32,944 nucleotides of DNA from positions 1-32,944 of the forward strand of contig JALSTB010000164.1 in assembly GCA_026983955.1 (NCBI GenBank), written 5' to 3'. Source of the stretch: Melioribacteraceae bacterium (lineage in GTDB: Bacteria; Bacteroidota; Ignavibacteria; Ignavibacteriales; Melioribacteraceae). This document shows positions 8,446-30,389 of the stretch, piece after piece (within the stretch, counting starts at the first letter, position 1; each line of letters starts with the position of its first letter). Under the pieces are notes generated by a model. That model saw nothing but the letters and a program-made list of their open reading frames with translations. It made no database searches and was not told where the DNA came from. The position numbers and the translations under genes are program-made.

Positions 8446-9074
8446 AACTATTAATTGCAGACGATCATTCGATTGTACGCAAAGGATTAAAGATGATAAT
8501 TTCGGAAATTCCCGGGGTCGAATCAATCGATGAAGCCTCTAACGGTTTTGAAGTCTTTGAAAAACTGGAACGGAATAAATTCGATTTGTTGCTTCTCGAT
8601 CTGTCAATGCCCGGTAAAAGCGGTCTCGACGTATTAAAAGAGGTTAAAAATATTTATCCCGATTTAAAAGTTTTGGTCTTGAGCATTCACCCGGAAAATC
8701 AATATGCCAAACGGGTATTACGTGCGGGTGCAAGCGGTTTCATTCCAAAACATGCAGACCCCGAAGAATTAAAAAGTGCAATTTTAAAAGTTATCCGGGG
8801 CAAAAAATATATTTCGAATCACTTTGCGGAATTACTTGCCGACGAAATAAGTAAACCCGAAACCGGGGAAAGACATCAAACTTTATCCGACCGGGAATTC
8901 CAAGTTTTCAAACTACTGGCAAAAGGCTACACCAATAAGGAAATATCCGGGATGCTGTTTTTAAGCGATAAGACAGTTAGCACTTACAAGAGCAGAATCT
9001 TTGAAAAATTGAATATCAATAACAATGCCGAGCTGATAAAATACGCTATTAAACACAACCTTCTCGAAGAATAA
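8442..9074 (+). CDS. NarL/FixJ-family response regulator, DNA-binding
   Basis: The 210-residue protein has an N-terminal receiver domain with acidic pair D7/D8, phospho-acceptor D53 (LLLLDLSMPG), S81 and K103 (FIPKHA). A C-terminal LuxR-type helix-turn-helix follows (about residues 148-205: LSDREFQVFKLLAKGYTNKEI then LSDKTVSTYKSRIFEKL). The ATG overlaps the kinase stop as ATGA, so the two are translationally coupled. HisKA_3 kinases pair with NarL-type regulators, so phosphate transfer from H1314 of the upstream kinase to D53 is the expected reaction. A plausible target site, an inverted repeat resembling NarL-family heptad sites, lies at 9085-9102 just after this gene. Confidence 0.95.
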   Translation: MKLLIADDHSIVRKGLKMIISEIPGVESIDEASNGFEVFEKLERNKFDLLLLDLSMPGKSGLDVLKEVKNIYPDLKVLVLSIHPENQYAKRVLRAGASGFIPKHADPEELKSAILKVIRGKKYISNHFAELLADEISKPETGERHQTLSDREFQVFKLLAKGYTNKEISGMLFLSDKTVSTYKSRIFEKLNINNNAELIKYAIKHNLLEE

Positions 9075-9084
9075 TCACCGGGAC

Positions 9085-9102
9085 TGTAAGAATATTCCTA
9101 CA
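9085..9102. promoter_or_regulatory. NarL-family-like inverted repeat ahead of the receiver/kinase pair
   Basis: TGTAAGAATATTCCTACA is an 18-base inverted repeat with eight of nine pairs matching. Its half-sites (TTCCTA/TTCTTA type, arranged around an AT core) resemble the inverted heptads bound by some NarL-family regulators such as BvgA. It sits 11 bases after the NarL-type regulator stop and 78 bases before the next gene. An outer GACTG/CAGTC pair (9082-9086 and 9110-9114) could make a longer stem, so a transcript-end structure is the alternative. Confidence 0.35.
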
Positions 9103-9179
9103 AAAAAATCAGTCAATTATTTAACAACCAAAAAGCCCTTTGTTGTATATTGTTTTTAGTCAAATAAAAATAATATAAC

Positions 9180-9542
9180 ATGAAAATTTTAATTGTTGAT
9201 GATTCGGAATTGCTGAGGGAAAGATTGATAGAACATTTGGCGAAATTGCCGGATGCACAGGCATTTATTGAAGCCGAAAATATTCTTGAAGCAAATAAAT
9301 TAATCGGCGAACTTAATCCCGATGTAATTATTACGGATATTCGCATGCCCGGCGGCAGCGGCATCGACCTTGTAAAAAAAATAAGAGCCACAGACAAATC
9401 CACATTAATAATCGTGCTTACCAACTATCCGTATGTGCAATACCGGGATGCAGCTTTGGAAGCAGGAGCAAATTACTTTTTCGACAAAACAAATGAATTC
9501 GAAAAAGTTTATTCAACACTGTACGAAATAAGCAACTCTTAA
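9180..9542 (+). CDS. Receiver-only (CheY-like) response regulator
   Basis: The 120-residue protein is a single receiver domain without an output domain: acidic pair D7/D8, phospho-acceptor D53 (VIITDIRMPGGSG), T81 and K103 (FFDKTNEF). Such proteins act through protein-protein contacts or as phosphate shuttles or sinks. The kinase gene starts eight bases after its stop, so the two are almost certainly one transcript and probably functional partners. No strong Shine-Dalgarno is visible before the ATG. Confidence 0.92.
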   Translation: MKILIVDDSELLRERLIEHLAKLPDAQAFIEAENILEANKLIGELNPDVIITDIRMPGGSGIDLVKKIRATDKSTLIIVLTNYPYVQYRDAALEAGANYFFDKTNEFEKVYSTLYEISNS

Positions 9543-9550
9543 ACAGAAAA

Positions 9551-11929
9551 ATGATTTTGAGTAAATCAAATAAAAAAATCGACAATATCATTAAAGGTTT
9601 TCTTCCCGCCTATAAGGAAATTAATAATCCCTTAATAATTACAGACGAGACAGGCAAAATAATTTTTTACAATAACAGCGCTCTGAAAATTTTAGGCAAT
9701 GAACTCGAAATAGGTGAAAAAATACACTCTTGCCTGCAAACCGGCGGTAAAAATCAAATGGAAGAATATTTCGCCAAAGCTTCCGGAACCGGCGAAAGCA
9801 TAACATTTGTCTATAAACTTAAGAACAAAACAGCCGGCAAGGTTAAAATTATACTCAATCCCGTAAAAGAAGGGAATAAACAACCTATCGGTTATGTGTT
9901 TTTAATAAAGCCGTTAAACTTTGAAACCAAAGCCGGTCAATTTTCCGGTGCGGTTTTACATGCCTTAACAAACGTATCCGAATTGGTCATCATTACCGAT
10001 ATAAATAAAAAGTTGATCTTTGCTAATAAATCAGCCGAATCGAAGCTGGGATATACTCAAGAAGAATTGCTTAATAAAAATCTGAAAGAATTAACCGGTA
10101 ACAAACTTTTCGATGAATTGAACCGCGCGGAAGATTTCACCGGCGGAGATAAGATTTGGGAAGGCGAATCGTTTTTAATTACAAAATCGGGTCGGACTTT
10201 CCCGGCAAAAATATCAATATCTAATATTTTTAATTCAAATAATCCGGCAAACAACTTATTGCTACTGACCGCCACGGATATTTCATTACAAAAAGAGACC
10301 GAACGGAAATTATATGAAAGCGAAAGAAAATTCAGAAGTCTTTTTGAGAATGCAACACTCGGAATGTACAGATCGGATAGAAACGGCAACATTATCATTG
10401 CAAATCCGCAATTGTTACACATCCTCGGCTACGACTCGATAGAAGACCTTAATGCAGGCGGCGGATATGTTGACCCGACTGTAAAAGAAAAATTAAGGGA
10501 AATTCTGGAAACCGAAGGGACAATATACGGCTTCGAAACCGCTTGGCAAAGACCGGACGGTAAAATCATTTACATAAGGGAAAGCTTGAAAGCCTTTTGG
10601 GATGAAAACGGATTGCTTAGTTATTATGAAGGCACCGTTGAAGATATTACGGATAAAATTATTGCTGAAGTTGAGGTACAAAAACATGCAAAAATTTTAT
10701 CGGCATTAAAGTCTATCTCGGAAATACTGCTCCGGCCGATTAATTGGTCGTCACAGCTGAATGAAGTATGTTCCGTTTTGGGTAAAACCCTTAAAATTGA
10801 TAGAGTTAGAATTTTTCAACATTTAAAGAATGATGATGAAAGAGGAAAATTTATATTCATTAAAAAAGCGGAATGGAACCGGAATAAAAATATCAATGAG
10901 ATCAAAGAATCAGTCGATTTCAAACAAATAGGACTTCAGAACTGGGTTGAAAAATTAATGCGGAACGAAATCGTTAGAAAAGATATTGACTCGGCAAATG
11001 CAGCGGAAAAAAGCTTTTTGATTAAAAATAATATTGCTTCAATTTTAATAGTTCCAATTTTCGTTAACAATGAATTTTGGGGCGGTATAGGAATGCACGA
11101 CTTTTCTAACGTACGGGAGTGGACAAACAGTGAAGTTGAAGCCCTACTTACCGCCGCCGAATCAATCAGTGCATCCATACAAAGATTGAATTACGAAGAA
11201 AGACTGATCGAAGCCCTTAACGAATCGGAAAAATCGGTAAGATTAAAATCGGAATTCCTTGCTCAAATCTCCCATGAAATCAGAACACCGATTAACAATA
11301 TTTTAAATTTTATAAGTTTAATCAAATTGCAGCTCGGAAGTAATCTTGACGAAGATCTTCAAACCAGCTTTAAAATAATTCAACGTTCTAGCGACAGGTT
11401 AATTAGAACAATCGATTTGATTCTGAACATGTCCGAATTACAAACGGGAAGTTACAAACCTAATAAAGTTATGTTCGATATTTTCTCCGAAATTCTGGAA
11501 AAAATTTACCTCGAGAACAAATACAAAGCAAAAGAACTTAATATAGAATTCAAACTTGTTAAAGAAACCGACGAAACTTTCATTTACGCCGATAAATATT
11601 CGGTTGAACAAATTTTTATCAATCTTCTGGATAATGCATTTAAATTCACCAAGGAAGGAAAAATCGAAATTAATATTCAAAGGCAGAACGAACAGCTGAT
11701 CGTTAAGGTTATCGATACGGGCATTGGCATATCGGAAGAATTTTTACCGGATTTATTCCACCCGTTCAGACAAGAAGAACAAGGTTACACCAGAAGTTTC
11801 GAAGGAAGCGGACTGGGACTTTCGTTAGTTAAAGAATACTGCGATTTGAACAATGCCGTAATATCCGTCGAAAGCCGCAAGGGTGGCGGAACTGTTTTCG
11901 AAATTAAATTCTCTTCTGCAAAAACTTAA
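9551..11929 (+). CDS. Cytosolic PAS-PAS-PAS-GAF sensor histidine kinase (HisKA type)
   Basis: The 792-residue kinase has no transmembrane segment. It shows a PAS domain at about residues 15-120 (NPLIITDETGKIIFYNNSALKIL), a second at about 134-250 and a third at about 260-375 (FRSLFENATLGMYRSDRNG). A GAF-like domain (about 380-550) precedes a classical HisKA domain with FLAQISHEIRTPINNI, phospho-acceptor H575. The HATPase_c domain (about 680-792) has N-box INLLDNAFKFTKEG, VIDTGIGI and GSGLGLSLVKEY. No receiver is fused to it; the adjacent 120-residue receiver protein may take that role. Dimerisation chemistry differs from the upstream HisKA_3 kinase, so the two kinases probably have separate primary partners even if they communicate. 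Confidence 0.94.
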   Translation: MILSKSNKKIDNIIKGFLPAYKEINNPLIITDETGKIIFYNNSALKILGNELEIGEKIHSCLQTGGKNQMEEYFAKASGTGESITFVYKLKNKTAGKVKIILNPVKEGNKQPIGYVFLIKPLNFETKAGQFSGAVLHALTNVSELVIITDINKKLIFANKSAESKLGYTQEELLNKNLKELTGNKLFDELNRAEDFTGGDKIWEGESFLITKSGRTFPAKISISNIFNSNNPANNLLLLTATDISLQKETERKLYESERKFRSLFENATLGMYRSDRNGNIIIANPQLLHILGYDSIEDLNAGGGYVDPTVKEKLREILETEGTIYGFETAWQRPDGKIIYIRESLKAFWDENGLLSYYEGTVEDITDKIIAEVEVQKHAKILSALKSISEILLRPINWSSQLNEVCSVLGKTLKIDRVRIFQHLKNDDERGKFIFIKKAEWNRNKNINEIKESVDFKQIGLQNWVEKLMRNEIVRKDIDSANAAEKSFLIKNNIASILIVPIFVNNEFWGGIGMHDFSNVREWTNSEVEALLTAAESISASIQRLNYEERLIEALNESEKSVRLKSEFLAQISHEIRTPINNILNFISLIKLQLGSNLDEDLQTSFKIIQRSSDRLIRTIDLILNMSELQTGSYKPNKVMFDIFSEILEKIYLENKYKAKELNIEFKLVKETDETFIYADKYSVEQIFINLLDNAFKFTKEGKIEINIQRQNEQLIVKVIDTGIGISEEFLPDLFHPFRQEEQGYTRSFEGSGLGLSLVKEYCDLNNAVISVESRKGGGTVFEIKFSSAKT

Positions 11930-22591: not shown

Positions 22592-22596
22592 GGAGG
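22592..22596 (+). promoter_or_regulatory. Shine-Dalgarno fixing the TTG start of the AAA-M41 gene
   Basis: GGAGG is five bases before the TTG at 22602. No in-frame ATG occurs near the N-terminal end, and the AAA+ module begins soon after, so the TTG is the start. Confidence 0.8.
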
Positions 22597-22601
22597 TTTG
22601 A

Positions 22602-24623
22602 TTGACTGCAAAAAACTATCCCACCGCAGAAGATTTCTTCAAAAAAAACGAAACATTAAACAAGGCAAAAACAATATTAAAAAAAGAATTTTTCGGGATT
22701 GACGAAATAATCGACCGGCTCGTCAATTCAATATCGGCATGGTACCTTTTCCCCCATTTACAAATGCGGCCCAGGATTATAAACTTATGGGGATTAACCG
22801 GTGTGGGCAAAACTTCCCTTCTACGCCGGTTGATTGAACTTATCGGGAAAAGCAACGATTGTTTGTTGTTCGAGATGGGCGAACCGAGAGGCGGCGGCAT
22901 TTTGTCATTTTACGATCAAATCACCAGCATACAACTGGGTGCCGTCAACCGTCCCGTTATTTACATTTTCGATGAATTTCAATTTGCAAAAACAATCGAT
23001 CATGACGGACATGAAATAACACATAACAGCAGCCGCATTATTTGGGAAATTTTAGGCAACGGCTTCTTCTATCTGTGGGATTATAAAAAACTTGAGATTA
23101 TTGAAGATTTATATATGAAATTCAAAGTTGCAATTTCCAAAGGTGTTAAAGCCGATAAAGGCTTAATTGTTAAAGGTGAGAACATCTATCAAAGGGTTTT
23201 TTCGGAAGATATTATCTATTCCGACAAAAAGGGTTCACCTAAATATTTTTACCCCGAGGAATATCTGAGCGATTTATTCAATCTGGTTAAAGATAAATTT
23301 AAAAACTCACTTGATTTACACAATTTACTTTTGACTTTTAACGAAACGGAAACATTGGACTATTTGAAAAAAGTTTTGCGCGAACATAATCCGCAAATTA
23401 AAGTCGATTGCACCAACGCACTTATTTTCATTGTTGGAAATTTGGATGAAGCATATCTGATTAACGATAATTTTAATCCCGATGTTTCTGCAGACGAGTT
23501 TTATAAATTTTCAAAAAAAATAAATATTTTAACAATTAAAGATGCATTACTTAAAAGATTCCGAAGTGAACAAATTGCAAGATTGGGAAACACGCATCTG
23601 ATTTATCCTTCACTTAACACCGGCGCTTATAAAAACATTATTAATGCCGAGCTTGACAAAATTGCCGCCAAGTATTCCGTAAATTTCGGAATTAAATTAA
23701 CCTTCGATGAATCATTGCGCGACTTGATTTACCGCGAGGGAGTTATTCCAACACTCGGGGCACGGCAAGTTTTTTCAACTATAGAAAATATTATTACTTC
23801 TAACATACCATCGATTTATTACGAACAAAAATTAAACAGATTACACGTGGATAAGTTTAATTTATCGACTGATAAAAATTTTCTTATTGTGGATTTTATA
23901 GAAGATAACAGAACTGTTCATACGTTAAAAATAAAACTGCACCTTTCCGTTGAAAATTTACGCAAAGCGGAAAACAACGACAGAACCGCCGTGGTATCCG
24001 TACACGAAAGCGGGCATGCGATTACAAGTGCGTTGCTTCTGAACAAAATTCCACAAAAAATACTTGCGTTTGCAGCCGTACCCGACACGGAAGGGATGAC
24101 CGTATTTGAATGGGACGACGAGCTCATCCCGCGCAATTCCGTAGTAAAAAGATTGGCCGTTTACCTTGCGGGTTACGCCGCCGAAAAAATTGTTTTCGGA
24201 GAAGATTTTGTTACAACCGGTTCGGGTAGCGATTTGCTCAAAGCAACAAGATTCGCATCACAAATGTTCAAAAGATACGGCTTGGGCTCAATCCAAGCTT
24301 ATTTTGAAAACGAACATACAGGGGAAACTCTCACCCTTTTCGATAACGATTACAGATTAAATTCTGAAATACGGAAATTACTTGGCGACGCCATGCAGCT
24401 TGCGGAAAAAACTTTATCCGAAAACAAATCTCTTCTTTTGCACACTGCCGATTCATTAAGAAAAAACGGATTCGTAAAAAAAGAAAATTTTATCCGGTTG
24501 CTGAACGAATACTCCGCATACACTTTTGATGAAAATTTACTTTATAAAAAATCCGCCACGGGTTATTATTCATCTATGCTCGATGAACAGCTGAGCTCCG
24601 AAAAATTAAAATTGGCAAATTAA
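22602..24623 (+). CDS. Clp-type AAA+ ATPase fused to an FtsH-type M41 metallopeptidase
   Basis: The 673-residue protein joins two modules that normally occur in different protease families. Residues 1-450 form an AAA+ module of the Clp/Hsp100 (ClpB D2-like) kind: Walker A GLTGVGKT (64-71), Walker B VIYIFDEF (119-126), sensor 1 IFIVGN (275-280), arginine-finger-like LLKRFRSEQIARLG (317-330) and sensor 2 LGAR (385-388). Between Walker B and sensor 1 lies an insertion of roughly 100 residues beyond the Clp norm. Residues 462-640 form an M41 peptidase: zinc motif HESGH (468-472), AGYAAEKIVFGE and third ligand D544 in TTGSGSD. There is no transmembrane segment, unlike FtsH, so a soluble hexameric ATP-dependent protease is expected. 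It leads a probable operon with sbcD and sbcC. Confidence 0.85.
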   Translation: MTAKNYPTAEDFFKKNETLNKAKTILKKEFFGIDEIIDRLVNSISAWYLFPHLQMRPRIINLWGLTGVGKTSLLRRLIELIGKSNDCLLFEMGEPRGGGILSFYDQITSIQLGAVNRPVIYIFDEFQFAKTIDHDGHEITHNSSRIIWEILGNGFFYLWDYKKLEIIEDLYMKFKVAISKGVKADKGLIVKGENIYQRVFSEDIIYSDKKGSPKYFYPEEYLSDLFNLVKDKFKNSLDLHNLLLTFNETETLDYLKKVLREHNPQIKVDCTNALIFIVGNLDEAYLINDNFNPDVSADEFYKFSKKINILTIKDALLKRFRSEQIARLGNTHLIYPSLNTGAYKNIINAELDKIAAKYSVNFGIKLTFDESLRDLIYREGVIPTLGARQVFSTIENIITSNIPSIYYEQKLNRLHVDKFNLSTDKNFLIVDFIEDNRTVHTLKIKLHLSVENLRKAENNDRTAVVSVHESGHAITSALLLNKIPQKILAFAAVPDTEGMTVFEWDDELIPRNSVVKRLAVYLAGYAAEKIVFGEDFVTTGSGSDLLKATRFASQMFKRYGLGSIQAYFENEHTGETLTLFDNDYRLNSEIRKLLGDAMQLAEKTLSENKSLLLHTADSLRKNGFVKKENFIRLLNEYSAYTFDENLLYKKSATGYYSSMLDEQLSSEKLKLAN

Positions 24624-24675: not shown

Positions 24676-25815
24676 ATGGCACTAAAATTTATTCACATTT
24701 CCGATTCACATTTGGGATTCAGCGATTTGGACATAACCGGAAACGACGGTAGAAACATACGCGAGGAAGATGTTTACAAAGCTTTTTCCGGTGCAGTTGA
24801 TATAATAATTAAGGAAAATCCGGATTTTGTCCTTCACACAGGCGATATATTTCATCGCTCTTCTCCAACCAACCGTGCGATTGTAATTGCCGCACGGGAA
24901 ATTCAACGCATAGCAAATGCAGGAATCCCTTTTTACATGATAGCGGGAAATCACGATTACCCCAAATCCGTTTTCACTTCACCTATTCACGAAATTTACC
25001 GCATTAACGATTCGGTTAATATCGCATATTCCGAAAAACTTGAAATATTTGAAGAGGATAATTTTATACTTCATCTTCTTCCGCATGTTAACGACGAGGA
25101 AAAATTTTTGCAAGAAGTGGAGAAAATTAAAATTACAGACAAAACCAAACCAAACATTCTGGCAATGCACATTGCGGTTTCGAGTTACGCTATGAACGAA
25201 TACGGCGAAAGGGTTTTCCCGGTTGAGAAAACACCAATGCTCAAAAAATTCGATTACGTTGCACTTGGCCATTGGCACAAATTCAATCATCTCAAAAAAT
25301 ACGGAAATGTTTATTATGCGGGCTCAACCGAAAGAACATCGGAATCACAAACCGGCTACGATAAGGGAATTGTGAAAGTAACTGTATCCGGAAAAACAAC
25401 CGTGGAATTTATTCCGCTTAAACTAAGAAGATACGAGAAAATTGTAGTTGACAATTGTAAGGGAAAATCGTTCAATGAAATTATATCTGAAATAAAAAAA
25501 CAATTGAACAAAGACAAAATTGAAGGCGGAATTTTCCGCATAAAACTGAATGATTTGCCAATCGAAAAAGCAAGCGAATTTTCTCGCGCGGTTTTTGAAG
25601 ATTTGCTTGAAGATGCTCTTCATTTCAATGTGGAGAAAAATATTTACGGCGTTCAACAAACAATTGAAATTGACAGCGAAAGCTTCGATCTAAAAAATTT
25701 TATACTCGATGAATTGGCTGCCGAGTTTAAAGGCAAAGATTTTCTAAAAGTGAAAAATTTGACTGAAAAACTTTGGTACGAAATTGAAGAGGAGGAAGCC
25801 TATGCAGATCAATAA
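24676..25815 (+). CDS. sbcD: SbcD/Mre11-type DNA exonuclease subunit
   Basis: This is the nuclease subunit of the SbcCD (Mre11-Rad50) complex, which cleaves hairpins and blocked double-strand ends using manganese. All phosphoesterase motifs are visible in order: HISDSHLG (D10, H12), HTGDIFHR, AGNHDYP, AMHIAV and ALGHWHK. At 379 residues the length is normal, with a C-terminal capping and Rad50-binding region. The ATG at 24676 follows GGGAAG. It is 52 bases after the AAA-M41 gene and overlaps the true start of sbcC by 14 bases, so the three genes are probably co-transcribed. Confidence 0.93.
   Translation: MALKFIHISDSHLGFSDLDITGNDGRNIREEDVYKAFSGAVDIIIKENPDFVLHTGDIFHRSSPTNRAIVIAAREIQRIANAGIPFYMIAGNHDYPKSVFTSPIHEIYRINDSVNIAYSEKLEIFEEDNFILHLLPHVNDEEKFLQEVEKIKITDKTKPNILAMHIAVSSYAMNEYGERVFPVEKTPMLKKFDYVALGHWHKFNHLKKYGNVYYAGSTERTSESQTGYDKGIVKVTVSGKTTVEFIPLKLRRYEKIVVDNCKGKSFNEIISEIKKQLNKDKIEGGIFRIKLNDLPIEKASEFSRAVFEDLLEDALHFNVEKNIYGVQQTIEIDSESFDLKNFILDELAAEFKGKDFLKVKNLTEKLWYEIEEEEAYADQ
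25790..25795 (+). promoter_or_regulatory. sbcC: Shine-Dalgarno fixing the sbcC ATG
   Basis: AGGAGG six bases before the ATG at 25802, inside the end of sbcD. It rules out the in-frame TTG at 25784 as the start and implies translational coupling of the pair. Confidence 0.8.
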
Positions 25816-28204
25816 ACTTGAACTGAAAAATTTCAAACAATACAAAGAAACGGTTCTGGAATTCCCCTCCGGCTTAACAGGCTTCGTCGGGAAAAACGGC
25901 TCGGGAAAATCAACAATTTTCGAGGCGATTGCGAACGCTTTATACGGTAAATTCGAGACAAATAAAGATTTGGTGAAAAACGACAAGGTCTCGCCGAAGG
26001 AAAACATGAGCGTTGTTTTACATTTCGAAGATAAAGGTGATGAATACAAAATTGTGCGTGATTACCGGGGCAAAAATTTAAACGCAAAAGCCGATTTGTT
26101 CAAAAACGGAAATCACCTTGTAACCGGTGCGGAAGAAGTGAACCGTGAATTGAGAAAAATTTTAAAAATCGATTATTCAAATTTCAAAAATTCTTTCTTC
26201 GCCCGGCAAAAAGAAGTTACTTCATTACTCGAGCTGGGAACAACCGAACGGCAACGTGCATTACGCAAAATGCTCGGACTCGAAAAAATGGACAAATTGG
26301 AAACCAAAATAAAAGAAGAAATTAAAGAGCAAACTACCGAGATAAAAGCGAAAAAAGATGAACTTCTCCCCGAGAGCGAAGTTAACAAAATGAAAAAGCA
26401 AGAAAACAAAATGACGAAAGAGCTTTCGGCAAAGAAAAAGGAATTGCAAAAAATCAATGCGTCCGTTAACAAAGCAAAGAAAGATTACTCCGCAATCAAA
26501 TCGGTTTTAAGCGAACTCGAGCAACAGAAAACAAAGCACGATTCACTGTCAAACGATTTGGAAATAGTAAAAACCAATACCGGCAATACTTCGGAAAATA
26601 TTGAAAAGGCCGAAAACGAGTTGAAGGAATTACGGAATGCGGTGAAAAAATACAAATCTCTTTTGCCCAAAAAAGAAAAATATGAAAAGCTTGAAAAGGA
26701 AATTGAGCTGTTACAAAAAGAAGAGCTTAAACTTAAAGATAAAATCAATAACGAAAAGAGAATTGAAAAGAACAATGAACAAATAGAAAATGAAAAACAT
26801 AATATTTCCGGTTGGCAAACAAACTTAAAATCTTTTGAGGGACTTGAAGAATCGTTGGAAGAAATCAAGACCAAAAGAAAAAAGCTGAAAGCGGACATTA
26901 ACGGACTTAAAAAGCATTTAACAACGGCAAATAAATTGACCGGAACATTGCAAAACAATCTCAATGAAAAAAGTGATCATCTGAAGGAAATCAAAAAGCT
27001 CGGTAAAAATTCCAATTGCCCCACGTGCGAAAGGCCTTTGAAAGATCACTACGATTTTTTGGTTAAAAAATACACTAAAGAAATTTCGGAACTGAAAGAA
27101 AAACTGATTGATGCCAAGTCAGAAGAAAAAAAATTGAAAGAATTAATTGACAAACATGAAAACGGCCTCGAAAAATTAAATTCGGAAGAATTAAAAACCG
27201 GGAAAAAACGCGAACGCAAGCAATCTTTGCTGGAAAAGATTGATGAAAGCAAAAAAAGAATAAAAGAATACCGGAAACAAAACAGGGCATTGCAAGCTGA
27301 AATAAAAAAACTCGGAATAATAAAATTCAACAAAGATGAACTTGTTAAAAAGAAAAACTTGAAGAAACAACTTGAACCGGATTACAAATTATGTATATCC
27401 CTTTCGAAAAAGAAAGACGAAGTACCGTTAAAAATGGAGGAAATAACGAAGCTCAAAAACCGATTGAAATCATTACAAACGGAGGAGAAAAAATTAAAAG
27501 AGAAAATAACCGGACTCAATTTCGATGAGAAGAAATATATTGTAACCAAAAAAGAAAGGGAAAAGAAAGAAAGTATTTTAAATGAATGGAAAGAAAAACT
27601 TTCGGAAAAGAAGGAAGAGATTGCAGAAATCAACAGCGCTTTGGCCCAAATTCAAACCAAATTGAGCGCCAATGAAAAACTGAAGAAGAAAATCGAAAAA
27701 TTGGAAAAAGAAGTTGAGTTGTTCAATAAACTTGCTACAACGGTGAAGATGATTAAAGAAAAAATCACCTCCAAAGAATTGCCGAAGATTTCCGCCGGAG
27801 CATCGGAACTGTTTACAAAAATAACCCGCGGAAGGTATTTCAATCTAAAGATTGACGAAGGCTTTAATTTTAAGGTTACGAGGGATGATAAAGAAGTTGA
27901 ATTAACGACGCTTTCCGGCGGCGAAAAAGACCTTGCCGCTTTGTGTTTGAGAATTGCCATAAGCAAAAGAATCTCAAATCTTGCCGGAAGAAGCAACATG
28001 GGTTTCCTTGCACTCGATGAAGTTTTCGGCAGTCAGGATGAAGACCGGCGCGAGGAATTGTTGAATGCCCTTCATGTTATTTCGGAACATTTCCGCCAGA
28101 TTTTTGTAGTTTCTCACAACCGGGATGTTCAAGATGAATTTCCCACGACAATTATTGTTTCCAAAAAAGGTGATTTCAGTCGCGCGGAACTTGTGATGAA
28201 TTAA
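25802..28204 (+). CDS. sbcC: SbcC/Rad50-type SMC-like ATPase
   Basis: This is the ATPase subunit of the SbcCD nuclease, 800 residues. The N-terminal ABC half has FVGKNGSGKSTIFEAIANALYG (Walker A near residue 35) and a Q-loop region ending in FFARQKEV. A long charged coiled coil (about 170-670) is interrupted by the zinc hook NCPTCERPL (C406 and C409), where two molecules join. The C-terminal half has the signature TTLSGGEKDLAALCLR and Walker B MGFLALDEVFGSQD. At 800 residues it is shorter than E. coli SbcC (about 1050), nearer to archaeal Rad50, because of a shorter coiled coil. Its stop is 15 bases before a strong terminator hairpin. Confidence 0.93.
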   Translation: MQINKLELKNFKQYKETVLEFPSGLTGFVGKNGSGKSTIFEAIANALYGKFETNKDLVKNDKVSPKENMSVVLHFEDKGDEYKIVRDYRGKNLNAKADLFKNGNHLVTGAEEVNRELRKILKIDYSNFKNSFFARQKEVTSLLELGTTERQRALRKMLGLEKMDKLETKIKEEIKEQTTEIKAKKDELLPESEVNKMKKQENKMTKELSAKKKELQKINASVNKAKKDYSAIKSVLSELEQQKTKHDSLSNDLEIVKTNTGNTSENIEKAENELKELRNAVKKYKSLLPKKEKYEKLEKEIELLQKEELKLKDKINNEKRIEKNNEQIENEKHNISGWQTNLKSFEGLEESLEEIKTKRKKLKADINGLKKHLTTANKLTGTLQNNLNEKSDHLKEIKKLGKNSNCPTCERPLKDHYDFLVKKYTKEISELKEKLIDAKSEEKKLKELIDKHENGLEKLNSEELKTGKKRERKQSLLEKIDESKKRIKEYRKQNRALQAEIKKLGIIKFNKDELVKKKNLKKQLEPDYKLCISLSKKKDEVPLKMEEITKLKNRLKSLQTEEKKLKEKITGLNFDEKKYIVTKKEREKKESILNEWKEKLSEKKEEIAEINSALAQIQTKLSANEKLKKKIEKLEKEVELFNKLATTVKMIKEKITSKELPKISAGASELFTKITRGRYFNLKIDEGFNFKVTRDDKEVELTTLSGGEKDLAALCLRIAISKRISNLAGRSNMGFLALDEVFGSQDEDRREELLNALHVISEHFRQIFVVSHNRDVQDEFPTTIIVSKKGDFSRAELVMN

Positions 28205-28338: not shown

Positions 28339-29196
28339 TTAATTGTAGTTTTTCAAAACGCCATTGGCAAGCGAAATTACACGTTCCCTCAGTTCTTCCG
28401 GTTCAAGAACAATTATCCCCTCGCCACGGCTTACAATCCAGCTAGCAATTTCATTTAATGAATTGACGATGGTTTCGAAAATAATTGTTCCGTCTTTCTT
28501 CTCCGTTATTTTTTGTACTTCCATCAATTGGCGGGGTTTCAGCCTGCTTGCCCAAGGTTCTTTAATTTCGAGGACAACTTTGAATCTATCGTCGCCAAGC
28601 CAGCTGCGGAAAGATGTTTCGAAAATCTCACGGAGTAATTTTTTGGAAGGTTTGCGGAAAGTTTTGCCCGTTAAATTTACATCGAGAATTCTATCGAGCA
28701 AAAACTGTTTCAAGGTACCGTTGTCCCTTGCCAAAAGCCGCCACGCTTTTTCGCTCTGGAATATCATGTACGGTTCCAACAAATAAGATTTTTTCTCGGG
28801 TGGATCGGCTTTTTTGTAAACAATTTCCGTTTTCAAACCTTTTTCAACCGACTGATGAAGAATTGTAACGATTGGCATTGCGCGGTGTTTCAACTTTTTT
28901 ACAAGCAGCGCCGTAGCTTTGTCGATACTGTGTTCGTTAACCGTTACGGTGAAATAATTTTCAAGTAGTTCCACTGTTTGTTCGGTTGTTAAATTTTTTT
29001 CAAGAACAATTCCGTTTTTTCCTTTGGAGTGAACCGGAATGCCCATCGAACGTAAAGCTTGCATATCCCTTTTTATTGTTAATGCTTCACAACCGAACCG
29101 CCCGGCAAGGTCTTCTACTTTAACTACTCCGTCTTTCGAAATAATAATTCCGAGCAGTTCTATCTGTCTTCTAATCTTTGCCCGTATGCCTTTCAA
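28339..29196 (-). CDS. WYL-domain transcriptional regulator (DeoR-like HTH)
   Basis: The 285-residue protein has an N-terminal winged helix-turn-helix (about residues 8-60: LLGIIISKDGVVKVEDLAGRF then EALTIKRDMQALRSMGIPV). A WYL domain follows (about 125-200: VYKKADPPEKKSYLLEPYMIF and AWRLLARDNGTLKQFLLDRI), then a WCX-type C-terminal segment (EPWASRLKPRQLMEVQKI). WYL regulators sense ligands, probably nucleic acid, and often control DNA-repair or anti-phage genes. The start is TTG at 29196, supported by AGGAGG four bases away. It converges on the AAA-M41/sbcDC unit and diverges from the ARPP-1 gene; copy B of the 22-base palindromic element lies 116 bases upstream. Confidence 0.9.
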   Translation of the reverse strand: MKGIRAKIRRQIELLGIIISKDGVVKVEDLAGRFGCEALTIKRDMQALRSMGIPVHSKGKNGIVLEKNLTTEQTVELLENYFTVTVNEHSIDKATALLVKKLKHRAMPIVTILHQSVEKGLKTEIVYKKADPPEKKSYLLEPYMIFQSEKAWRLLARDNGTLKQFLLDRILDVNLTGKTFRKPSKKLLREIFETSFRSWLGDDRFKVVLEIKEPWASRLKPRQLMEVQKITEKKDGTIIFETIVNSLNEIASWIVSRGEGIIVLEPEELRERVISLANGVLKNYN

Positions 29197-29200
29197 GTTT

Positions 29201-29206
29201 CCTCCT
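29201..29206 (-). promoter_or_regulatory. Shine-Dalgarno fixing the TTG start of the WYL regulator
   Basis: On the minus strand this reads AGGAGG, separated by AAAC from the TTG at 29196. No ATG is available at the N-terminus. Confidence 0.78.
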
Positions 29207-29311
29207 GAATTTTTCGTAAAAATAATTATATGATTTTAAAAATACCTATTTAAGTCAACATCTTTTAATTACTTATTTTCAATTCCGGATTGTCATTAGA
29301 ATATAATAATT

Positions 29312-29333
29312 AAATATCTTTAAATGATATGAC
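29312..29333. promoter_or_regulatory. Palindromic element between WYL and ARPP-1 genes, copy B
   Basis: ATATCTTT-A-AATGATAT followed by GAC matches the element at 22492-22513 at 21 of 22 positions; the one difference breaks one pair of the palindrome. It sits 116 bases from the WYL start and 139 bases from the ARPP-1 start, so it could control either or both divergent genes. Part of it (TATCTTTA) also resembles a -7 promoter element on the plus strand, which is an alternative explanation for this copy only. Confidence 0.5.
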
Positions 29334-29360
29334 TATTTAACATAATTTATCTAATTTATT

Positions 29361-29382
29361 GTCGTTCCGTTTTTGCGGGAAC
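29361..29382. repeat. Hairpin element sharing GTCGTTCCG with the 22.2-kb intergenic region
   Basis: GTTCC (29364-29368) and GGAAC (29378-29382) can pair around GTTTTTGCG. The outer 11 bases TTGTCGTTCCG (29359-29369) recur in inverse orientation at 22234-22244, next to another GTTC/GAAC pair. This looks like a second, degraded family of REP-like repeats. Confidence 0.38.
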
Positions 29383-29426
29383 AAACATTCCGGAAAAAGC
29401 AATATTCCCAAATCCTAAATTACCGC

Positions 29427-29449
29427 TATTCCGGTCGGAATATTTTTTT
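29427..29449 (+). terminator. Terminator-like hairpin plus T-run in the ARPP-1 leader
   Basis: TATTCCG and CGGAATA form a 7-base palindromic stem separated by GT and are followed at once by seven Ts (29443-29449). The structure ends 22 bases before the ARPP-1 start and 12 bases before its AAGGGGG ribosome binding site. If the ARPP-1 promoter lies upstream, for example near 29320, this could act as an attenuator. If the promoter lies within it, the hairpin is fortuitous. Confidence 0.4.
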
Positions 29450-29471
29450 ACCAACTTTTCAAGGGGGAAAG

Positions 29472-30389
29472 ATGGAAATCTCAAATATTAACTTACAACA
29501 TGCCGGCGCGCTTTCAATCTTACAATTCAAAACGGATGAAACGGGCGAGTTTCAGTACATAGCTTTGAACGAGGCTTTAAAAAATAAATATCTGAAAATC
29601 ACCGAGGTTAATAAAGCCGGCTCGGTTAATGAAATTATTCTGGAAAACACCTCGGATAAATTCATATTCATGATGGACGGTGACGTTTTGGAAGGAGCGA
29701 AACAAAACCGTGTGGTAAATTCTTCGGTTCTCGTTGCCCCGCACTCCAAAATTATTTTACCGGTTTCCTGTGTTGAGCAAGGAAGATGGTCGTTTAAATC
29801 GGAGCACTTCGGCACCGCCGAGTACATTGCTCCAACGGAATTGAGGGCTAAAAAAGCTAAACGGGTAAGGGATTCGTTACGATCCACAAGGGAATTCGCT
29901 TCCAACCAATCGGAAGTTTGGGATGATGTGAGGTTTTTTTCCAATAAATTCAGTGTTAACTCACCAACACAAAACCTTTCGGATATTTTCCAGAAGAAAT
30001 CACATAACATCGATGAATTTGTAAAACAATTCAAAATTAATCCGGACTCAAACGGAATTGCAATTTTCTTGAGGAATGATCTGCACTCAATCGATATTTT
30101 CCACAGTGGGAATATCTACCGGACTTATTTTAAAAAAATATTGAAAGGTGCGGCTCTGGATGTTCTTAATTTGAAAAACGAAGATGAGGCGCCGGACAAA
30201 GCAGAAGCATACTACAAAACCGTTACATTGTTGGACGAATTGGCTGAAACCGGCTATTCGGTTCATAACGGAGTTGGTGTGGGTACTGAAAAAAGATACG
30301 ATTCGGATGATTATGCCGCTTTTGAATTGTGGTTTACCAAATATTTAATTCACCTCACGGTTCTAAATTCACGGAAAAAAACCGGATAA
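29472..30389 (+). CDS. ARPP-1 family domain protein (DUF6569-like)
   Basis: The 305-residue protein matches the ARPP-1 (ADP-ribosylglycohydrolase and rhodanese-phosphatase associated) domain family. The diagnostic core is FIFMMDGDVLEGAKQNRVVNSSV near residue 64, then LVAPHSKIILPVSCVEQGRWSF near residue 86. An S-E-V-W-D-D segment and a C-terminal extracted-domain strand region (NGIAIFLRNDLHSIDIFHSG) follow. No signal peptide is present, so it is cytosolic. The biochemical activity is unknown; the family name reflects gene associations with ADP-ribose/NAD-related conflict systems, as I recall. The ATG at 29472 follows AAGGGGG. It diverges from the WYL regulator, which may control it. Confidence 0.75.
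   Translation: MEISNINLQHAGALSILQFKTDETGEFQYIALNEALKNKYLKITEVNKAGSVNEIILENTSDKFIFMMDGDVLEGAKQNRVVNSSVLVAPHSKIILPVSCVEQGRWSFKSEHFGTAEYIAPTELRAKKAKRVRDSLRSTREFASNQSEVWDDVRFFSNKFSVNSPTQNLSDIFQKKSHNIDEFVKQFKINPDSNGIAIFLRNDLHSIDIFHSGNIYRTYFKKILKGAALDVLNLKNEDEAPDKAEAYYKTVTLLDELAETGYSVHNGVGVGTEKRYDSDDYAAFELWFTKYLIHLTVLNSRKKTG

Follow-up and report, generated by a model that had tools for sequence, protein, structure and literature searches.

Clp-type ATPase and M41 peptidase on one chain

The DNA analysed here, referred to as the window, is the whole 32,944-nucleotide (nt) stretch from position 1 of contig JALSTB010000164.1 (Melioribacteraceae bacterium, assembly GCA_026983955.1), and the gene in question occupies positions 22602-24623 on its plus strand. 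The open reading frame (ORF) is uninterrupted, encodes 673 amino acids (aa) and begins with a TTG codon; 5 nt ahead of it, direct reading of the sequence reveals GGAGG (22592-22596, +), which resembles a ribosome-binding site. It is near certain that the product combines a Clp-D2-type AAA+ ATPase and an M41 peptidase on a single chain without a predicted membrane anchor, as assessed by the ORF, Pfam and NCBIfam models, hydropathy, hhalign, AlphaFold2 and structure comparison. A first-pass annotation had proposed exactly this soluble fusion, and the ORF, Pfam, NCBIfam and hhalign agree on it. Pfam detects Peptidase_M41 (6.6e-20, residues 462-631) and ClpB_D2-small (4.3e-7, residues 339-403), and gives weak AAA matches for the large ATPase domain. 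The FtsH model of NCBIfam, TIGR01241, scores 59 bits against a cut-off of 600 and is aligned to residues 456-629 only, while the Clp models match at residues 13-82 (ClpA) and within 267-418 (ClpK, ClpV and ClpB). Among PDB sequences, the peptidase matches FtsH, and the ATPase matches ClpC-type proteins and Lon weakly. No transmembrane helix is predicted in the window protein, as had been claimed at first reading, since the Kyte-Doolittle mean over 19 residues peaks at 1.09, at residue 473; among the ten strongest hydropathy maxima in the family described below, eight lie at residues 469-480 within the M41 domain, one lies at 439, and one is N-terminal in the viral member L140 (1.89). An S16 Ser-Lys protease domain was not matched by Pfam in the window protein up to an E-value of 10, in a search whose filters remove most matches above 0.1.

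Relatives were collected by alignment search, because scans of the genome_contigs and viral_contigs collections with a single sequence found none. Of the 186 candidate stretches that this search gave in genome_contigs, 160 were relatives, as were 54 of the 94 in viral_contigs, the latter representing 52 loci on IMG/VR virus contigs. As the genome_contigs set consists of the best-scoring 80 of the 160 relatives, its taxon tally (72 Bacteroidota, 3 Ignavibacteriota, 2 Myxococcota, 1 Chlorobiota and 1 without a phylum, among 79 members) is skewed to relatives near the query. Searches of whole genomes revealed full-length matches in 2 of 58 genomes, namely the window's own and G032 (40%); the latter protein is the same 676-aa protein as that of L060, which belongs to a Melioribacter genome. 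Full-length matches were also found in 5 of 391 genomes of a class draw, including the window's own, with the other four at 32-36%, and in 5 of 395 genomes of a phylum draw, again including its own. The window genome also encodes an ordinary FtsH (C61), and four further ORFs in it exceed the cut-off for the Clp small domain; therefore, the Clp-M41 protein is an extra protease in this organism.

The family alignment contains 124 distinct proteins that reach 480 aa or more (range 483-874, median 682), taken from genome_contigs, viral_contigs and the loci with G handles, with identical proteins counted once; it excludes a second weak match in L178 and a 97-aa fragment from L067. The motifs named in the first-pass annotation, GLTGVGKT, FRSEQIARLG, GAR, HESGH and D544, are all found where it had placed them, and its view that the catalytic residues of both modules are intact is borne out by near-invariance of the Walker, arginine-finger, sensor 2 and zinc residues over the 124 members. 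In the ATPase, Walker A (GLTGVGKT, residues 64-71, 22791-22814) has G69 and K70 each in 123 of 123 non-gapped members, Walker B (22959-22976) has D124 in 124/124 and E125 in 123/124 (one member carries D), and the sensor 1 region GNLD (residues 279-282, 23436-23447) has N280 in all 124. In FRSEQIARLG (residues 320-329, 23559-23588), which had been read as the arginine-finger segment, R327 is invariant (124/124) and R321 is conserved in only 103 of the 124. The Clp-type small domain detected by Pfam (23616-23810) carries sensor 2 GAR at residues 386-388, with R388 in every member. The M41 domain (23985-24494), which is supported by Pfam, PDB sequences and hhalign, contains the zinc-binding and catalytic motif HESGH (residues 468-472, 24003-24017), whose H468, E469 and H472 are each present in 123/123 non-gapped members, as is D544 (24231-24233), the expected third zinc ligand, a role that we take over from FtsH. 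All these features lie on the plus strand. A chance fusion, a misassembly or a decayed gene can be dismissed, since the same architecture recurs as a conserved family in more than 120 distinct sequences from many assemblies, in line with the earlier statement that the gene is not decayed.

Members of the family on virus contigs deserve separate description. Terminase matches were found in 11 of the 44 virus records searched (of the 52 loci), of which 10 pass the cut-off and five are contigs of 297-385 kb; the records without a terminase may be fragments or non-phage. Two virus contigs, L185 and L186, encode at 9968-11419 a 483-aa form consisting of the ATPase without the M41 part. At another locus of the family, L054 (2609-5574), a 625-aa member begins within the end of a 362-aa ORF, the two sharing one base; judged by eye, this ORF has membrane-like stretches, and the arrangement suggests a different two-gene unit. 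In plasmid and phage collections, no record covered 80% of the query (the window protein in both, the L054 protein in the plasmids). None of the PHROGs matched both halves in the five proteins scanned, the two halves matching two different PHROGs, and BFVD contained FtsH-like or Clp-like proteins, none of which was recognizable as having the Clp-M41 architecture. Regarding homologs over the full length, the architecture is conserved, and no published account of it was found in the open-access literature searched, including passages of PMC7824862, PMC7159879, PMC1586002 and PMC12645872 and section 2.4 of PMC6514570; it may be catalogued somewhere as a domain arrangement. The FtsH ternary systems of PMC7159879 are described as FtsH-type, classical AAA+.

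Origin of the motor and the inserted domain

As the first-pass annotation had suggested, the two halves were compared separately, and they lead to different protein families. The family peptidase aligns with FtsH M41 over 177 columns (hhalign, 2.8e-29), and the family ATPase (window residues 8-415) aligns best with the D2 domain of ClpB/C (E 1.6e-15 over 272 columns). The alignment with ClpV D2 extends over 268 columns (4.9e-8) and that with ClpX over 88 columns (2.3e-6), whereas the alignment with the FtsH AAA domain (2e-6) is confined to 69 columns surrounding the P-loop. Each of the comparison sets is small, their sizes being 20 ClpB/C, 5 Lon, 3 ClpV, 6 ClpX and 21 FtsH sequences from relatives of the window genome, and the names of the ClpB/C, ClpV, ClpX and Lon sets were assigned in-house by Pfam small-domain match, length and P-loop. 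A grouping of the ATPase inside the FtsH AAA family had been named beforehand as the observation that would speak against a Clp origin. In an IQ-TREE phylogeny of 63 ATPases, built without the insert, the family is instead monophyletic (100/99), and a branch supported at 80/86 separates it, together with ClpB/C and ClpV, from FtsH and Lon. As several long branches meet in this tree, it serves as supporting evidence only, and the grouping was therefore rested on profiles and structure as well. An AlphaFold2 model of the window protein, computed from 98 sequences, has a predicted local distance difference test score (pLDDT) of 92.0 and a predicted template modelling score (pTM) of 0.88. The top 20 matches of a second-look structure aligner are Skd3/CLPB, ClpC, ClpB and ClpA chains (Z 23.0-24.1, root-mean-square deviation (rmsd) 2.9-3.9), covering model residues within 1-445.

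Several observations weigh against this grouping of the ATPase. The second-best profile is that of Lon (hhalign E 5.8e-10, 128 columns), the tree puts ClpX on the same side as FtsH and Lon, and the FtsH chain 3kds_E spans both modules with a Z of 22.5, close to the Clp chains, but with an rmsd of 7.0. Foldseek, ordered by E-value, lists FtsH-type chains first, which span both modules at a query template modelling (TM) score of approximately 0.3-0.4, and ClpC and ClpB NBD2 (the second nucleotide-binding domain) lower. Taken together, the profiles, the tree and the AlphaFold2 model support an ATPase of the Clp/Hsp100 D2 type rather than of the FtsH type.

Between Walker B and sensor 1, alignment and a separate fold prediction delimit an inserted domain (residues 156-268, 23067-23405, +), the position of which is that of pore loop 2 in Clp D2. 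The insert measures 84-180 aa across the family (median 118), and window residues 154-273 folded alone give a predicted pLDDT of 90.5. No match to the PDB was found at E<=0.001, and the best second-look Z was 3.5; such a lack of a match to a solved fold is no evidence of a new fold. The aromatic-hydrophobic-G motif of pore loop 1 is found at residues 92-106 in 0 of the 124 members, which puts Clp-like threading in question, whereas it is present in 20/20 ClpB/C, 6/6 ClpX and 21/21 FtsH segments, in which it was searched along the whole segment, a looser test. The pore contacts would have to come from the insert, unless threading proceeds differently.

Genes beside the protease

Gene context was compiled from the neighbours within six genes of the protease at 124 loci (83 bacterial and 41 viral). 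Neighbour families were obtained by single-linkage clustering, with BLAST, of the ORFs predicted by a simple caller, which missed the open frame of 707 residues in L114, and Pfam and NCBIfam were applied to cluster representatives and a few members; the counts are lower bounds, as many contigs end near the gene. The RNA ligase RtcB is found near the protease in 17 of the bacterial loci and in a single viral one, and 21 of 21 genes or gene pieces are on the strand of the protease. The release factor PrfH occurs in 11 bacterial loci, always on the same strand and within two genes; nine of the 11 were tested against the cut-off of 166.65 bits, and all nine pass it with 222-291 bits. The gap between PrfH and the protease is 0-33 bp in six loci, and in five others RtcB lies immediately ahead of the protease, at 10 bp or less or overlapping it. 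In addition, KptA/Tpt1 is a neighbour in six bacterial loci, being located 1-2 bp downstream in four, and genes of an RNA ligase cluster and of a P-loop kinase cluster occur in four loci each. In total, RtcB, PrfH or KptA accompanies the protease in 18 bacterial loci. As PrfH exceeds its cut-off in just 11 of 198 genomes of the phylum and RtcB in 92 of 198, the adjacency goes beyond the background.

The bacterial members linked to RtcB/PrfH are distributed in two separate clades, 11 in a clade of 16 rows and six in a clade of 10 Bacteroidales rows, the second of which is nested among members linked to WYL regulators. The label falls on 17 of 82 bacterial tree rows with six changes, which may represent two gains and some losses. 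L126, L127 and L131 lie inside the RtcB-linked clade without RtcB nearby, and in these a gene of a short-chain-dehydrogenase cluster adjoins the protease on the opposite strand. In L069 (3265-10958), genes for RtcB, PrfH, the protease, KptA, TatD, an RNA ligase and a P-loop kinase follow one another on the same strand in what amounts to an almost complete RNA-repair cassette; RtcB and TatD are assigned there by cluster membership only. On the virus contig L173 (11968-14099), the gene that immediately follows the protease is an RtcB interrupted by a LAGLIDADG ORF, which divides it into two pieces. The virus contig L181 carries near the protease a short RF1-like release factor of 179 aa (9014-9553).

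Genes of a WYL cluster were found in 45 of the 83 bacterial loci, 24 of them adjacent to the protease and 12 two genes away. Pfam confirmed WYL for the cluster representative and for the window's own gene, and the cluster includes two oddly long ORFs (L126 and L127). GmrSD, McrB/McrC, PDDEXK_4, DUF2779 and RNase T are further neighbours. Proteins of the DUF2779 cluster, with weak RNase H and Cas4 matches, lie within five genes of the protease in 13 bacterial loci (e.g., L067, 5144-6628), and 10 of these 13 loci also have a WYL-cluster gene.

The window protease groups with the WYL-linked clade, paired with L060 (97, FastTree). Downstream of it follow an SbcD-like gene and an SbcC-like gene, then a WYL regulator on the minus strand and an ARPP-1 gene on the plus strand; the last two (28339-30389) are divergent. 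The regulator, a helix-turn-helix (HTH)-WYL-WCX protein by Pfam (28339-29196, -), is a candidate partner of the protease. No other WYL gene of the window genome exceeds the cut-off, and G032 carries, two genes upstream of its own protease, a homologue (48% over 196 aa) that is truncated by the end of the contig. A homologue of the ARPP-1 protein (29373-30389, +) adjoins the protease in L084, where it lies 12 bp upstream (29% over 284 aa) beside a divergent WYL-cluster gene. As a two-gene ARPP-WYL neighbourhood is already described in PMC9503650, ARPP-1 is considered a weak candidate only. The SbcD-like and SbcC-like ORFs (24676-28204, +) overlap by 32 bases, and the SbcC-like protein scores with the PADLOC models mad3 and LmuB. 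Among nine relatives searched, SbcD was found in one, G032 (64%), with SbcC beside it (50%). This homologous pair lies in a 17-kb stretch without the protease, and SbcD and SbcC were accordingly rejected as partners and regarded as a separate module, possibly a mobile nuclease module.

Proposed role and comparison with known systems

The ATP-dependent proteases of bacteria are commonly grouped into a few architectures, namely Clp-ClpP, HslUV, Lon, FtsH and the proteasome ATPase, with M41 tied to the FtsH motor and the membrane. On the best reading, the present protein belongs to a soluble AAA+ metalloprotease family that would be new. A conserved soluble Clp motor with M41 shows that the peptidase module can be re-motored, and the protein provides a natural chimera for examining how substrates pass from an AAA+ ring to a peptidase when the customary aromatic pore loop is apparently missing. 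Assembly into hexamers, proteolysis powered by ATP, co-transcription and the part that the protease plays are inferred as follows. The Clp/Hsp100 D2-type ATPases would probably form a hexameric ring, by analogy with FtsH and Clp, which would unfold proteins or feed them into a ring of M41 zinc peptidases made of the same chains. R327 would act in trans on the ATP of the neighbouring chain and R388 as sensor 2, and H468, H472 and D544 would hold the zinc.

Regarding the biological role, the neighbours favour, with a probability of roughly 0.58, a soluble AAA+ metalloprotease family that provides proteolysis within an inducible response to RNA or ribosome damage in conflicts with phages or toxins; a role in RNA damage or conflict as such is moderately likely. 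According to PMC9223846, RtcB2-PrfH frees formylmethionine (fMet) from ribosomes whose 16S ribosomal RNA (rRNA) has been cleaved by colicin E3, and reseals the rRNA, and PMC6514570 argues that the system answers RNase effectors. In the RtcB-PrfH loci, the protease may destroy the incomplete, untagged polypeptides that PrfH releases, while RtcB and KptA would mend the RNA; alternative targets would be damage-bound proteins or factors stuck on the ribosome, or the toxin. Where a WYL gene accompanies the protease, as in the window, control may lie with a regulator that senses nucleic acids. The neighbours RtcB, PrfH and KptA raise a testable question regarding the fate of peptides, factors and toxins on a damaged ribosome during RNA repair. 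A more specific formulation, to which we give somewhat less than even odds, is that of a sixth bacterial AAA+ protease architecture, dedicated as the proteolytic arm to ribosome and RNA-damage rescue. On this view, a new receptor domain in the pore-loop-2 region would allow the enzyme to remove the stubs released by PrfH or factors bound to the damage, and the gene would have spread horizontally, also on large phages.

Several findings weigh against a role in RNA damage, in addition to the missing pore loop motif. Genes of the RtcB, PrfH, KptA, RNA ligase and kinase clusters are absent within six genes in 65 of the 83 bacterial loci, many of whose contigs end early. Viral links are few, consisting of one RtcB (L173), one KptA (L169; four genes off, on the opposite strand) and one RNA-ligase-cluster gene (L151; six genes off), and the release factor of L181, at first counted as a viral PrfH, was rejected as RF1-like and taken out of the recount. 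In the window genome, no PrfH over the cut-off was found, and its one RtcB is on another contig, so that neither stands beside the window protease; the RNA-repair link has been demonstrated in relatives rather than for the window copy. WYL genes similar to that of the window also occur elsewhere in G032 and in G004, a genome in which no protease was found. Finally, the restriction-type neighbours point to defence islands more than to RNA repair.

These neighbours would fit an anti-phage effector under WYL control, which would be switched on at infection and would degrade phage proteins or essential host proteins, RNA repair being just one of several neighbours. The frequent WYL-cluster genes, the GmrSD, McrB/McrC, PDDEXK_4 and DUF2779 neighbours, the sporadic distribution and the WYL type of the window copy would all be expected of such an effector. 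It is nevertheless a rather unlikely explanation, as it leaves the tight same-strand RtcB-PrfH arrangements unexplained and as members on terminase-bearing virus contigs suggest a function of use to phages too; in addition, PADLOC-DB 2.0.0 gave 0 families at E<=0.01 for the window protease. The absence of the aromatic pore loop motif and the insert without a recognized fold would be consistent with an unusual AAA+ remodeller, which would act through the insert on one particular partner (for example, a damaged ribosome or RNA-protein complex), and whose M41 domain would clip a few sites in a non-processive manner. This is unlikely, since the Walker, arginine-finger and sensor residues are near-invariant, as in a working motor, and the insert could itself supply pore contacts. 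AAA+ proteases usually serve in quality control, and the family-wide conservation of the catalytic residues would suit such a protease of general function in the cytosol, equivalent to a soluble FtsH and without a special tie to conflict. Such a housekeeping function is improbable for a protein that, besides the window's own genome, is present in 1 of 57 relatives, 4 of 390 genomes of the class draw and 4 of 394 of the phylum draw, and whose host already possesses FtsH and the four other ORFs over the Clp small-domain cut-off.

Compared with known systems, the proposed proteolytic arm of the RNA-damage response meets the RtcB2-PrfH RNA-repair operons (PMC9223846 and PMC6514570) in the 18 bacterial loci that hold RtcB, PrfH or KptA. 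The accessory genes given in section 2.4 of PMC6514570 are those for a tetratricopeptide repeat (TPR) protein, a Pol-beta nucleotidyltransferase (NTase), a ZnR protein and a charged helical protein, with no AAA+ or M41 protein in that section. As in WYL-regulated defence loci (PMC9122601 and PMC9122588), a WYL regulator stands beside a candidate effector; unlike in those loci, the candidate effector is an AAA+ metalloprotease, and its regulation is putative. With FtsH, i-AAA and m-AAA, the family shares M41 with HExGH and Asp, and the ATPase precedes the peptidase on one chain in the same order. The ATPase is of the Clp D2 type instead of a classical AAA, a transmembrane segment is absent, an insert of approximately 118 aa is present, and the P-loop of the window protein reads GLTGVGKT as opposed to GPPGTGKT in the 21 FtsH ORFs compared. 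The D2-type AAA+ fold, the small domain, the TGVGKT P-loop, the arginine finger and the GAR sensor 2 are common to the D2 domains of ClpA, ClpB and ClpC and to the single-ring Skd3/CLPB. In contrast to Clp/Hsp100 proteins, which have a separate ClpP/HslV or none, the family possesses its own covalent metallopeptidase, has no second AAA ring, carries the insert after Walker B, and shows no GYVG-type pore loop 1. Lon (LonA) is likewise soluble with ATPase and protease in one chain, and the P-loop region of one 815-aa ORF, assigned to Lon by length and P-loop, is 40% alike over residues 13-84; unlike the S16 Ser-Lys peptidase of Lon, the peptidase of the present family is an M41 zinc enzyme.

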